Of a stretch of DNA of 64,000 bases, positions 34,338 to 38,977 are shown piece by piece. The stretch lies in assembly GCA_902826455.1 (NCBI GenBank), contig CADEEV010000001.1, positions 184,955 through 248,954 of the forward strand, read 5' to 3'. A model generated the notes under the pieces. That model was not told where the DNA came from. It did no database searches and worked only from the letters and a program-made list of their open reading frames with translations. The stretch's first letter is position 1. Each line of letters starts with the position of its first letter. This DNA is from an uncultured Acidobacteriota bacterium. GTDB taxonomy: Bacteria; Acidobacteriota; Vicinamibacteria; Fen-336. Both the position numbers and the translations under genes were made by a program.

Positions 34338-35345
34338 TTAGGGCTTGGCCGTCGCCGGCGCCGGCTGGGCCGTGGGGTGCGCGGTGGCGTAGAGCGCCAG
34401 CTCGAGGTCGCGGAACGCTTCCTGGGCGCTCGACTCCAACGGCCGACCCGCTTCGATGTCCGCCACGTAGCGATCGTACAGGGTCAGGGGCGGTGCTTCG
34501 ACGGGGTAGAGGCGCGCCTGGCCGTCACGCGTCGCGCACAGCACCGGCCGGCCCTCGCGCGTCTCGAAGCGCAGCAGGTAGCGCTGGTCCGTGATCACGA
34601 AGTTCACGTTGATGCGCTCGCGGTCGTTGGCCTTGCGGTCGTAGATCGCGAGGTCCGCCGCCCAGCTGATGGAGAGGTGCGCGGTGGCGCCCGAGGCGAA
34701 GTCGAGGACCAGCAGCTCGGTGTCGGGAATGCCGAAGGTCTGGGCCAGCCGATACCCGTGGTAGCCGAACGTCACCACCTCGGACTGTGCCAGGTGGCGG
34801 GCGGTGTTGAGGTTGTGGATCACGGCGTCCACCAGCGGGCCGCCGTTCTTCGTCGGGTCGATGGCCCAGGGCGCCCAGTACGGGAAATGATGGATCCAGT
34901 CGTGCTTGTAGAGCTTGAGCGCGCCCACCTCCCCCGAGTCGAGGACCTTCTTGAGCGTGTGGACCTGCGGGTCGCCCGTGCGCTTGTAGATGACCAGGCA
35001 CCGGCCGTCCTTCGTGGCGTCGCAGATCGCCCGCGCGTCCTCGAGGTTCGGCGCCAGGGGCTTGGTGGTGATGATGCGCTTGCCGCGCGAGGCGGCGTGC
35101 TCGACGAGGGCCCGGCGCGTGAAGGGCGGCGTGAAGACCAGGGCGATGTCGATCGAGGGGTCGTCGAGGATCGCTTCGGCCGACGCGGCGACCGGCGCGC
35201 CCAGGCGCTGCGAGGCCAGGGCCGCGGCTTCCGGGTTCGGGTCGTAGACGGCACTCACACGCACGCGCTCGCTGCGGGTGAGGATCGGCGTCTGGATGCG
35301 CGTGAAATCCCCACAGCCCAACAGCCCGGCCCGGTACACCTTCAT
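34338..35345 (-). CDS. Gfo/Idh/MocA-family oxidoreductase
   Basis: 335 residues. The N-terminal Rossmann part starts YRAGLLGCGDFTRIQTPIL; the substrate/cofactor motif usually EKP is TKP (ITTKPLAPN). The C-terminal domain has GALKLYKHDW and the conserved GGPLVDAVIHNLNTARHL, whose Asp and His are the usual catalytic pair. Enzymes of this family oxidise sugars, inositols or their derivatives with NAD(P), often as the first step of a catabolic route. It is the first gene of the six-gene operon; ATG 35345 follows GGAGAAA. A strong promoter and tandem operator array precede it. Confidence 0.88.
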   Translation of the reverse strand: MKVYRAGLLGCGDFTRIQTPILTRSERVRVSAVYDPNPEAAALASQRLGAPVAASAEAILDDPSIDIALVFTPPFTRRALVEHAASRGKRIITTKPLAPNLEDARAICDATKDGRCLVIYKRTGDPQVHTLKKVLDSGEVGALKLYKHDWIHHFPYWAPWAIDPTKNGGPLVDAVIHNLNTARHLAQSEVVTFGYHGYRLAQTFGIPDTELLVLDFASGATAHLSISWAADLAIYDRKANDRERINVNFVITDQRYLLRFETREGRPVLCATRDGQARLYPVEAPPLTLYDRYVADIEAGRPLESSAQEAFRDLELALYATAHPTAQPAPATAKP

Positions 35346-35370
35346 TTTCTCCGCGCTCTCTCGAATAGGA

Positions 35371-35432
35371 AACCAAACGCAACCAAACGGCGATTGCGAA
35401 GTCTTATACGCTCTTTCGAGCGGCAGGGTCAA
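35371..35432 (-). promoter_or_regulatory. Promoter plus DeoR-type half-site array upstream of the six-gene operon
   Basis: On the minus strand TTGACC (35432-35427) and TATAAG (35408-35403) are 18 bases apart, the same spacing as at 3881 and 8700. Downstream, the plus strand shows a 10-base direct repeat, AACCAAACGC/AACCAAACGG (35371-35390). It contains AAACGCAA at 35375 and AAACGGCG at 35385, next to an inverted TTGCGAA at 35394. The half-site nearest the -10 box reads CTTCGCAA in the direction of transcription, as in the amidohydrolase promoter. Confidence 0.72.
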
Positions 35433-35539: not shown

Positions 35540-37663
35540 ATGGTCGAACTCCTCCATCGCGAACGGACGATCAAGGTCAAGATCGTCTACTACGGCCCGG
35601 CGGTCGGCGGCAAGACCACGAACCTGCAGGTCCTCCACCAGCACACCCACGCAGCCCGGCGCGGCGAGTTCGTGTCGATCAACTCGGCCCAGGACCGCAC
35701 GATCCTCTTCGACCTGCTGCCGATCCGCGCGCCGGGCTTCCGGGGCTTCGACATCCGCCTGCAGATCCTGGCGGTGCCGGGCCAGGCCATGTACGCCGCC
35801 ACGCGCCGCCTGGTCGTGCGCGGGGCGGACGCCTGCGTGTTCGTGGCCAACTCCGCGGCCGACCGCTGGGAAGACAACGTCCAGAGCTTCCGCGAGATGG
35901 CGCAGAACCTGATCACGCACCAGCTCGATCCGTCCACGATGCCGCTCGTGCTGCAGTACAACAAGCGCGACCTGCCCGACGTGACGCCCATCGACTTCAT
36001 GGACCGGACATTGAACGCGCGCAGGGTCGACGCGTTCCCGGCCGTGGCCGTCCGGGGAGAGGGCGTCCTCGAGACCTTCTCGGCGATCCTGCTCCGGACC
36101 ATGCAGGATCTCGCGAATCGCTACCAGATCGTCGAGACCCAGCGCGGCCAGACGCTCAGCCAGTGGACCCAGACCGCCGTCGCCGGCATGTTCGGGACGA
36201 ACTCGCTGGCCCTCGAGCCCCACTCGATCTCGGTCGAGCCGCCCCCACTCGTCGTCCCGCCCGCGCCGGCGGCCCCACCGGCTCCGCCGCCGCTCGTGGC
36301 CGAGACCCGGGCTCCGTCCGCCCCCGTCGTTGCGGAGTCCCCGCTTCCCGAGCCGGCTCCCGACACCGACGCCGAGCCCGCGGTGCGGCGCCTCGTCCGC
36401 GTCACGCTGCCGGCCGAGGCGGTTCGCATGTCGGGCGCCGGCCCCGACGCCCGCGCCAACGAGACCCTGGTCGAGTCGTATGCCCAGGCCTCCTCGCAGC
36501 TCTCGACTGCCCTCACAGAGGTCCGAGAGGACCGGGACGTCATGAAGCGCCGCGTCGAGGACCTGCAGCAGATCCTGAGCACCGCCCAGGGCTTCCTCGC
36601 GGGGCAGCCGCTCGAGGCGACGCTGCGCGCGGTGCTCACGCGCATGGCGCGCTCGGCCGCGTGCACCCATGCCACGTTCCTGCTGGCGGGCCCCGACAAG
36701 ACGCTGCGCCTCGCGGCCTATTTCGGAAGGCTGACCGAGGATCCGCTGCTGCGGACCGATACCGGGCGGCGCTACATCCAGGCCCGGCTGCTGAACGACG
36801 CCGAGCCCCACGTGCATCCCGGCGCCGACGCCCTCGACCTCGGCGACGCGCTCGATTCCGTGGAGCCGCGCTTCGCCGCGGTGACGCCGGTGCCGGTGCG
36901 CACGCCGCGAGGGCTGCTGGGACTCGGAATGCTCTACTACACCCACGACGACGCGCTGCCCTCGGCCGACACCCTGGGCCACCTGGGAATGCTCGCGCGC
37001 GCGATGTCCGCGTCGCTCGAGCTGTCGTCCACCCTGGAGACCTTGAAGAGCGCCGAGCGGACGATGGAGCTCGCCGTCTCGGGCACCGCTTCGGTCCGCG
37101 GCCTGGGCGAGGTCGTGGACTTCCTCGGTTCGTTGCGTGACGAGTTCGGCGCCATGCGCCGGCGGGGAGACCTGCCACCGTGGTTCCTCCAGGAATTCCT
37201 GAAGCTGTCGCCCGGCCTGGCCGGCGCCCTGGCCGCCGCCCGCGCTCTCGTCGCCTTCGGCCGGGGCGAGGTGGCCCACGAGCCCATCGCGATCGACGAG
37301 GTGGCGGCGGACCTCGCGACGGAGCCGGTCGAGGTGCAGGTAGTGGGCGGCGCCACTGGCGTGATCGGCGACCGCGTGCTGCTGCGGTTGGCCCTGAAGG
37401 CGCTGATCGATCAGGCCGGCATCACCGCCGACGGCGGCGTCGCGCCCCTGCGCGTGACGTTCGGCGGCGGCCGCGTGCGCTTCTCGCTCGGCGAGGCGCC
37501 GCCGCCGATCGGGGTCGTCGGCGCGCCCACCGAGGCGCCGCGTCCGAACCCCGTGGCCAGCCTGAGCTTCGTGAAGCGCGTGGCCGAGCTCCACGACGGC
37601 ACGCTCAGCGTGGAAGAGACGAGCCTCGGCCGGCGCTACACGCTGGCGCTGCCGCCCGGCTAG
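35540..37663 (+). CDS. MglA-like Ras-type GTPase fused to a GAF domain and a degenerate kinase-like module
   Basis: 707 residues. Residues 1-205 are an MglA-family GTPase: P-loop GPAVGGKTTN (19-28), switch-II-like VPGQAMYAATRRLVVRGAD, and N141-K-R-D144 for guanine recognition. A proline-rich linker (about 235-290) and a coiled coil (residues 320-360) follow. A GAF-like domain comes next (LEATLRAVLTRMARSAACTHATFLLAGP through GLLGLGMLYY). Last is a C-terminal region resembling a histidine-kinase dimerisation/ATPase part (GDRVLLRLALKALIDQA and RRYTLALPPG at the very end), but without clear G boxes. MglA proteins direct polarity and motility switching; here the GTPase may be linked in cis to a sensory module. 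Convergent with the NYN gene. Confidence 0.82.
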   Translation: MVELLHRERTIKVKIVYYGPAVGGKTTNLQVLHQHTHAARRGEFVSINSAQDRTILFDLLPIRAPGFRGFDIRLQILAVPGQAMYAATRRLVVRGADACVFVANSAADRWEDNVQSFREMAQNLITHQLDPSTMPLVLQYNKRDLPDVTPIDFMDRTLNARRVDAFPAVAVRGEGVLETFSAILLRTMQDLANRYQIVETQRGQTLSQWTQTAVAGMFGTNSLALEPHSISVEPPPLVVPPAPAAPPAPPPLVAETRAPSAPVVAESPLPEPAPDTDAEPAVRRLVRVTLPAEAVRMSGAGPDARANETLVESYAQASSQLSTALTEVREDRDVMKRRVEDLQQILSTAQGFLAGQPLEATLRAVLTRMARSAACTHATFLLAGPDKTLRLAAYFGRLTEDPLLRTDTGRRYIQARLLNDAEPHVHPGADALDLGDALDSVEPRFAAVTPVPVRTPRGLLGLGMLYYTHDDALPSADTLGHLGMLARAMSASLELSSTLETLKSAERTMELAVSGTASVRGLGEVVDFLGSLRDEFGAMRRRGDLPPWFLQEFLKLSPGLAGALAAARALVAFGRGEVAHEPIAIDEVAADLATEPVEVQVVGGATGVIGDRVLLRLALKALIDQAGITADGGVAPLRVTFGGGRVRFSLGEAPPPIGVVGAPTEAPRPNPVASLSFVKRVAELHDGTLSVEETSLGRRYTLALPPG

Positions 37664-37678
37664 CGGACGGCTCCCGGA

Positions 37679-38977
37679 CTACTCGTCGCTCTCGGGCTTG
37701 CGGGCCGGCTCCGGCGCGGGCGCCGACGCCTCGGCCTCACGGGGCGGATCGCGTCGCAGCCACGAGAACAACGAGAACGCCGCGCGCTCCTCGGCGTCCT
37801 CGCGCCGCTCCACGGGAGCGGCCGCAGGGGACTCGTGGGAGTGACCGTCGTGGTCGTCGTGATGCGCGTCGTGGCTGTCGTGGGACTCGTGGCCGTCGTC
37901 GGCCGACAGGTCGTCGTCGTTGTCGTCGTCGGGTCCCTCGTCGAGCAGCGGCTGGCTCGGATCGGCGCCGGCGCCGGGCGCGAGCGGCGTTCCGGTGCGC
38001 GAGCGACGGCCCCTTCCGCCGCGGCGCCGACGCGGGCCGCGGGTGGCGGTGGCCGTCGCCGCGCCTTCGGCCGAGGCGGCCTCGCCGTTGGCGGGAGGCG
38101 CCACGACCGCGATCCCGTTCGCCGGGGTCGTCTCGACCAGGCGCGGCCCGACCGGGGCGTTCCCGGACGTCGCCGGCGCGTTCGAGGACGCGCTGGAGGC
38201 CGCGGCGCCGGAGCCCGCGCCCAGGTCCTCGACCACGTAGGAGCCCGACTTCTGGTCGCGCCGCAGCGTCACGATGTTCTTGCGCTGGGCCTCTTCGAGC
38301 AGGTGGCTGAAGGTGCGGAAGCCGTAGTAGGTCTCGTTGAAGCTGGGCTTCTTGCGCTTCATGGTTTCCTTGACCATGGAGCCCCAGAGGACTTCCTTGC
38401 TCTCGCGCTGGAGCGCGAGCACGGAGTCGACGAGGAGGGCGAAGCACTCCTGGACCTTCTCGGGCAGGTTGCCGATCTGCGGCATCGGGCGCTGCTGCCC
38501 GCGGACGAGGTCCTCGTAGAAGATGAACTCGTCGCAGTTCTCGATCAGCAGGTCGGAGGTCGAGTTCTTGACCCCGAGGCCGATCACGTACTTGTTGTTC
38601 TCTTTGAGCTTCGAGACGAGCGGGGAGAAGTCGGAGTCTCCCGACGCCACCACGAAGCAGTTGATGTGGTCCTTCTGGAAGGACATGTCCATGGCGTCCA
38701 CCACGAGTCGGATGTCCGCCGAGTTCTTGCCGCCGATGGACTTCTGGGGGACCTCGATCAGCTCGATGGCCGCCTCGTGGAAGCTGCGCTTGTAGTCCGA
38801 GTAGCGGCTCCAGTCGGCGTAGGCCTTCTTGACGAGCAGCTTGCCCTTGTCGAGCAGGCGCTCCAGCACGAGGTTGACGTCGAATTTGCGGTAGTGGGCG
38901 TCTCTGACGCCGATCGCGATGTTCTCGAAATCGATGAATAGAGCGAGACGCTGCTCGTCCGAATGGTTCGTAGCCAA
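37679..38977 (-). CDS. NYN-domain (PIN-like) nuclease with OST-HTH/LOTUS domain and Asp/His-rich tail
   Basis: 432 residues. The LabA-like NYN domain spans residues 8-165 with ALFIDFENIAIGV (first acidic residue), SADIRLVVDAMDM and VVASGDSDFSPLV, matching PIN-like RNase active-site aspartates. A LOTUS/OST-HTH winged helix follows (about 170-255: VQECFALLVDSVLALQRESK through VTLRRDQKSGSYVVED). The tail holds a basic block (RRRRGGRGRRSR), then an acidic, His-rich run beginning DDDNDDDLSADDG, which may bind metal. It is probably an RNA-binding or RNA-cleaving protein in the cytoplasm. The TTG start at 38977, giving ATNHSDEQRLALF, is preferred because GGAGG lies just upstream; a TTG at 39001 has none. 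Confidence 0.83.
   Translation of the reverse strand: MATNHSDEQRLALFIDFENIAIGVRDAHYRKFDVNLVLERLLDKGKLLVKKAYADWSRYSDYKRSFHEAAIELIEVPQKSIGGKNSADIRLVVDAMDMSFQKDHINCFVVASGDSDFSPLVSKLKENNKYVIGLGVKNSTSDLLIENCDEFIFYEDLVRGQQRPMPQIGNLPEKVQECFALLVDSVLALQRESKEVLWGSMVKETMKRKKPSFNETYYGFRTFSHLLEEAQRKNIVTLRRDQKSGSYVVEDLGAGSGAAASSASSNAPATSGNAPVGPRLVETTPANGIAVVAPPANGEAASAEGAATATATRGPRRRRGGRGRRSRTGTPLAPGAGADPSQPLLDEGPDDDNDDDLSADDGHESHDSHDAHHDDHDGHSHESPAAAPVERREDAEERAAFSLFSWLRRDPPREAEASAPAPEPARKPESDE

Follow-up and report, generated by a model that had tools for sequence, protein, structure and literature searches.

The window, a 64,000-nucleotide stretch of one contig of an uncultured soil Acidobacteriota bacterium, carries on its forward strand a gene that joins an MglA-type GTPase to a GAF domain and a histidine-kinase-like tail. 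The features of this gene, in window positions, are:

35540–37663, forward strand: whole gene, MglA-GAF-pseudo-histidine-kinase, 707 amino acids (ATG open reading frame without internal stop; homologues)
35555–36109, forward strand: MglA G domain, residues 6–190 (6hjh/6h17, E = 2e-44; Foldseek match 3t1o, E = 2e-14)
35594–35617, forward strand: P-loop GPAVGGKT, residues 19–26, with Ala21 at the position of Ras Gly12
35693–35701, forward strand: D52-R53-T54 of switch I, with R53 as intrinsic arginine finger (PMC4316618)
35771–35785, forward strand: switch II AVPGQ, residues 78–82, with Ala in place of Thr78 and the catalytic Gln82 kept
35960–35971, forward strand: guanine-specificity motif NKRD, residues 141–144
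36197–36451, forward strand: proline-rich disordered linker, residues 220–304 (29% Pro in 226–290; pLDDT below 50)
36458–36598, forward strand: coiled-coil helix of 47 residues, 307–353 (structure prediction; conserved VESYAEA motif)
36605–37036, forward strand: GAF domain, residues 356–499 (about 356–500; structure prediction, Foldseek, profile and family HMM)
37094–37264, forward strand: DHp-like two-helix hairpin, residues 519–575, without phospho-acceptor His
37271–37660, forward strand: CA/HATPase_c-like domain, residues 578–707, without the N-box Asn and the G1/G2 glycines

Upstream lies a divergent gene for a Gfo/Idh/MocA oxidoreductase (34338–35432, reverse strand). The downstream neighbor (37679–38932, reverse strand), which encodes a protein with NYN and OST-HTH/LOTUS domains, is convergent and ends 15 bases past the stop codon of the fusion gene. 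Genomes G007 and G012 have this NYN/OST-HTH gene at the corresponding position, and the identity of its product to their copies (81–85% over approximately 260–280 residues) is high for the neighborhood. Two relatives keep the downstream order of NYN/OST-HTH, TetR, TolC-like, and RND genes. Operon partners were considered and rejected, as the nearest gene is convergent despite this synteny. We give almost no weight to an assembly chimera or frame artefact: although the assembly is a draft in 108 contigs, several independent assemblies of relatives show the same architecture, which excludes a chance or chimeric reading frame, the downstream synteny is kept in two, and cultured Geothrix also has MglA-kinase fusions.

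The hydropathy maximum of the protein is 1.41 (19-residue window), which indicates that it has no transmembrane segment. Pfam by itself scored neither GAF nor HATPase_c in this protein. The GAF fold was instead recognized from an AlphaFold2 model (pLDDT mostly 80–91 in this domain), from a Foldseek match to 3cit (E = 3e-7), from a family HMM (E = 8e-8), and from a profile of ten relatives, which hit a sensor-kinase GAF domain (3hcy, E = 1.6e-4). The linker, the coiled coil, and the GAF domain had all been named in a sequence-only reading of this DNA, and structure prediction and remote homology bear them out. In the full-chain prediction, run with seven sequences, the GAF domain was confident and confidence elsewhere was low (mean pLDDT 58); since pTM was 0.36, with the linker and inter-domain geometry unpredicted, the model gives no contact between GTPase and tail.

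A Group 1-type G domain with an altered switch II

Residues 6–190 match the structures of Myxococcus xanthus MglA (6hjh, 6h17, and 5ymx) with E about 2.5e-44, so the MglA-like GTPase of the sequence-only reading is secure. That reading had also described the P-loop, NKRD, and switch region as intact, which is true of the P-loop, R53-T54, Gln82, and NKRD but not of Thr78, which is Ala, or of the Ras Gly12 position, also Ala. Measured against the traits of Group 1 MglAs, the protein has the P-loop GxxxxGK[T/S] and [NT]KxD motifs (GPAVGGKT and NKRD) and the Arg adjoining the G2 Thr (R53-T54), whereas its G3 motif is AVPGQ rather than TVPGQ and its 707 residues exceed the single-domain length of at most 240 residues used in the census of this group.

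The change at position 78 marks the clade to which the protein belongs. Thr78 is present in 124 of 124 other MglAs examined and absent from all 15 members of the clade, where it is replaced by Ala in 14 and by Gly in one (GVPGQ). Since the clade is a single lineage, the loss was probably one evolutionary event. In M. xanthus, full MglA function needs Thr78: complementation by a T78A allele is poor, and T78D leaves the protein without function (PMC3000849). Position 21 is Ala or Pro within the clade; Ala21 was rejected as a mark of the fusion, as Ala occupies this position in 67 of the 124 other MglAs sampled, single-domain Verrucomicrobiota proteins among them.

A coupled mglB, typical though not universal for Group 1, does not accompany the fusion gene. 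The sequence-only reading had proposed searching the rest of the genome for an adjacent MglB/roadblock gene; mglB was found on contig C14, where it lies beside a canonical mglA. There are three other roadblock genes in the genome, and no Robl_LC7 match on contig C1, which carries the fusion gene. On contig C47, the same genome encodes another kinase-like fusion (535 amino acids, weak HisKA match), in which the H-box His is present and the CA domain is degenerate. Two further MglA paralogues (L003, C12:11695–12300, and L004, C53:8150–8701, of genome G000) have other extensions, consisting of a linker that is proline-rich or acidic and, at the C-terminus, a beta-rich stretch with a pattern like IPVEVxxxxGxxxxIxLxLxLxL. 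With their relatives (L078, L088, L103, L114, L049, and L138), they represent a second kind of MglA extension, found in Acidobacteriota and Aminicenantes.

The tail keeps a histidine kinase fold and has lost the kinase motifs

A profile of ten relatives, searched against the PDB, matched histidine kinases over DHp and CA (ThkA 3a0r, E = 1.1e-10; ZraS, E = 2.8e-10), and hhalign related the tail to the tails of fused kinases with 97% probability. Residues 476–707 were also modeled separately, using an alignment with three relatives. The model, with a mean pLDDT of 68 (75–88 over most of the CA core), contains a signaling helix, a DHp-like hairpin of two helices, and a CA domain, and it aligned with many histidine kinases at Z about 13 (Foldseek, VIA-align), including HprS (13.6), RetS (13.2), DivL (12.8), and the CA domain of ThkA (Z 13.3, rmsd 3.1 Å over 117 residues). 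As two kinases with conserved CA motifs were in the alignment behind this model, it may be biased toward that fold; the profile evidence for DHp and CA is independent of it. The tail thus has the DHp plus CA fold of a histidine kinase, by both profile matches and structural alignment.

Motif loss was scored against intact relatives (L121, L124, L125, and L077). In alignments to these, the tail has no phospho-acceptor His in the H-box columns or close to them, and no N-box Asn, DxGxG, or GxGxGL boxes, in place of which stand LIDQAG, LGEAPPPI, and NPVASLS. The degenerate kinase-like ATPase end described from the sequence, a kinase fold stripped of its N-box Asn and G-box glycines, is therefore what further analysis found.

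Is such a tail merely a relic in decay, leaving a protein that works as an ordinary MglA? Every kinase motif is gone, one member (L014) seems to have no DHp/CA part, and identity to relative L010, which is 0.81 in the G domain, falls to 0.36–0.39 over DHp and CA, with dN/dS near 1 in that saturated pair. However, the full-length tail is kept across two families of the class, the VESYAEA helix motif and the GAF domain are conserved, and dN/dS over the dead DHp and CA is 0.19 for L007/L008 and 0.10 for L013/L030; these are rough NG86 values at 70% GC, and pairs that include the protein studied here are saturated. The values for the close pairs indicate that purifying selection maintains the dead tail, and we regard a functionless relic as improbable.

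Kinase-fused MglAs form a family in Acidobacteriota

Long MglAs proved common when relatives in 60 genomes were combined with a scan of genome contigs. Pfam identifies MglA-GAF-HisKA-HATPase_c chains in L121 and L124 (HATPase_c, 4e-30 and 8e-29; HisKA, 4e-22 and 3e-21; GAF_2, 5e-15 and 2e-17), and also in L077/L123, L125, and L122, the last with a weak HisKA. Holophagaceae have MglA-PAS-histidine kinase-receiver proteins, for example cultured Geothrix fermentans DSM 14018 (L053), whose MglA-PAS-HATPase_c-receiver chain was likewise identified by Pfam. HMMs derived from the fusions found kinase-like tails after MglA in ten or more additional groups of Acidobacteriota at the family level (f15, f18, f28, f34, f36, f43, f51, f71, f79, and f83), counted beyond the family of the present protein and two other families of its class. 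The HMMs were built from members of f18, f51, f71, and f83 and from two named MAGs, for which Pfam provides the independent support. Several fused relatives carry the complete set of kinase motifs.

The 707-residue protein is therefore not isolated but one member of a phylum-wide family of fusions between MglA and sensor histidine kinases. It shares the order of parts and the side of the G-domain tree with L053, L121, L124, L077, and L125; these have kinase motifs, wholly or in part, and Thr78, whereas our protein lacks both. Because fused relatives, several with complete motifs, make up its family, the tail is best described as a decayed but maintained kinase.

Some members have unusual surroundings. 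In two genomes of one family, an intact MglA-GAF-kinase gene overlaps or adjoins a downstream GAF-HisKA-HATPase_c gene (L154:5711–9329 and L155:4843–8411), making a two-kinase unit possible. DUF4388 (PF14332) genes, which we take to be PATAN-like, lie near MglA-GAF-kinase genes of Thermoanaerobaculia (L077:7274–8689 and L156:4403–6271). PATAN genes near some MglAs were noted in the 2014 census (PMC4316618). In family f16, two frames of 855–1127 amino acids (L181 and L193) place MglA after approximately 400–480 residues and then a GAF domain, with no kinase detected.

No MglA-kinase fusion outside Acidobacteriota was seen in a limited sample, comprising 148 genomes of the phylum of L079 and the other genomes whose loci were checked. 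One chain of the non-Acidobacteriota set (L182, 954 amino acids) has an acidic linker and no kinase. Spread by plasmids was rejected, as Deinococcus gave just a plain MglA-like match.

In two trees of 83 G domains each, branches with support of 100/98 and 100/99 separate the non-fused MglAs from every kinase-fused one. The only rows without a kinase on the fused side are L044 (244 amino acids, in both trees) and L193 (MglA then GAF, in the second tree). These trees, whose root is not fixed, are compatible with a single origin followed by a few losses but do not prove it. L044 and contig C148 of genome G335 (L179) have a 244-residue fused-side MglA with a histidine kinase gene approximately 4 kb away, an arrangement that is perhaps a split or pre-fusion state.

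Proteins of the present type make up one clade (100/100), with members in two families of the class (f1 and f10) and in MAG N075bin57, and this is a kinase-dead clade of the fusion family. Across the family, the phospho-His has been replaced variously by Ala, Asn, Leu, Gln, Asp, and Arg, with at least eight state changes on the tree (8–9 in bootstraps), of which well-supported branches force four. The main GTPase motifs are kept. This combination of repeated phospho-His loss and retained GTPase motifs suggests that the constant function may be the GTPase more than phosphotransfer.

Discussion

The protein is a real, maintained, kinase-dead member of a fusion family that seems not to have been described before. 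Literature searches on MglA with GAF, histidine kinase, pseudokinase, Acidobacteria, and Geothrix, covering mainly open-access papers, found no published MglA-kinase fusion, so the wide prior description that could have undercut the novelty of the sequence-only reading did not turn up. The main census (Wuichet and Sogaard-Andersen, 2014; PMC4316618) removed MglAs longer than 240 residues. The long fusions found here suggest that MglA has come to be viewed as a stand-alone switch in part because of this length cut-off.

How might such a protein work? Of the mechanisms considered, we infer the one suggested by the sequence-only reading to be the best: a ligand or partner that the protein senses would control GTPase output in cis. 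Specifically, the protein would be a cytosolic one-chain switch in which an MglA-type GTPase is tethered, via a flexible proline-rich linker and then a coiled coil, to a GAF sensor and to a histidine-kinase module that, from its fold, is probably a dimer and has lost the residues for phosphorylation. It most likely descends from MglA-GAF-histidine-kinase fusions with complete kinase motifs. A ligand or partner at the GAF domain would change the coiled-coil/DHp dimer, and the changed dimer would determine which nucleotide state the attached GTPase adopts or how accessible it is, the GTPase being the output. The dead kinase would act as dimerizer and also as a relay or a platform for docking. 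Because it carries Ala21 and Ala78, the GTPase probably has a cycle unlike that of M. xanthus MglA, with slower hydrolysis or an altered switch II, which would allow control in cis to dominate. We put the probability of this one-chain switch, with GTPase output set in cis by GAF and a kinase-dead module descended from intact fusions, at roughly one half (0.5). It fits the repeated loss of kinase motifs while GTPase motifs are kept, and the strongest constraint along the protein falls on the G domain (0.81 identity to L010, against 0.39 for DHp and CA).

A less probable alternative, to be considered above all for intact relatives, is that signaling runs the other way. The G domain would then be the input: MglA-GTP, set in trans by MglB or another partner, would change the dimeric tail. 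The tail would be the output and could, for example, control a further sensor kinase by pairing with it, in the way that RetS controls GacS; where relatives are intact, the GTPase would serve as the gate of a genuine kinase. MglA is N-terminal, the usual place of inputs in histidine kinases; some relatives with complete kinase motifs also carry a receiver (L053); two genomes have an overlapping second GAF-kinase gene directly downstream (L154 and L155); and the dead tail matches RetS and DivL, among others, in structure. However, the family repeatedly loses kinase motifs and keeps GTPase motifs, divergence is quicker in the tail than in the G domain, and a second kinase gene was not seen beside the fusion gene.

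A broader reading, which we offer tentatively, would join the two directions. Acidobacteriota may have evolved, across the phylum, a class of single-chain G-protein sensor kinases whose Ras-like GTPase and kinase regulate each other in cis; in one branch, the kinase would have become a dead dimer acting allosterically on a GTPase whose switch II has been rewired.

With the Group 1 MglAs of M. xanthus and Thermus thermophilus (PMC4316618), the protein has in common the P-loop, R53-T54, Gln82, NKRD, and the fold. Those proteins have approximately 195 residues and TVPGQ, whereas the fusion has 707 residues, AVPGQ, a GAF domain, a kinase-like tail, and no mglB nearby. Among the structural matches of the tail, DivL resembles it in having a DHp plus CA fold without the standard phospho-His chemistry, and RetS in acting, as the tail might, by pairing with another kinase; neither has a small GTPase attached. 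More of the nucleotide site survives in DivL and RetS than in the tail.

The protein may also be likened to the actinobacterial conservons, which consist of the histidine kinase CvnA, the roadblock protein CvnB, CvnC, and the GTPase CvnD, with a GAF protein, CvnF8, in Cvn8; CvnA8 autophosphorylates (PMC13343842). Both unite, within one signaling unit, a Ras-like GTPase with a GAF sensor and a protein that resembles a histidine kinase. By its sequence, the fusion protein is not a conservon: in place of a four-gene cvnABCD operon there is a single gene between divergent oxidoreductase and convergent NYN genes, with no adjacent roadblock or CvnC gene, and the kinase motifs are lost. The GTPase is of Group 1 type (NKRD, Arg finger), not Group 2, with neither NxFD nor a C-terminal LPxR, the sole LPxR being at residue 60 within the G domain. 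How a histidine kinase communicates with a Ras-like GTPase is an open question in conservons, where the phosphorylation target is unknown (PMC13343842). Whereas conservons have the kinase, the GAF protein, and the GTPase as individual proteins, the fusions join parts of these kinds in one chain, a one-piece conservon as it might be called, in intact and kinase-dead versions, with one related version in cultured G. fermentans, which makes their coupling testable in one purified protein.
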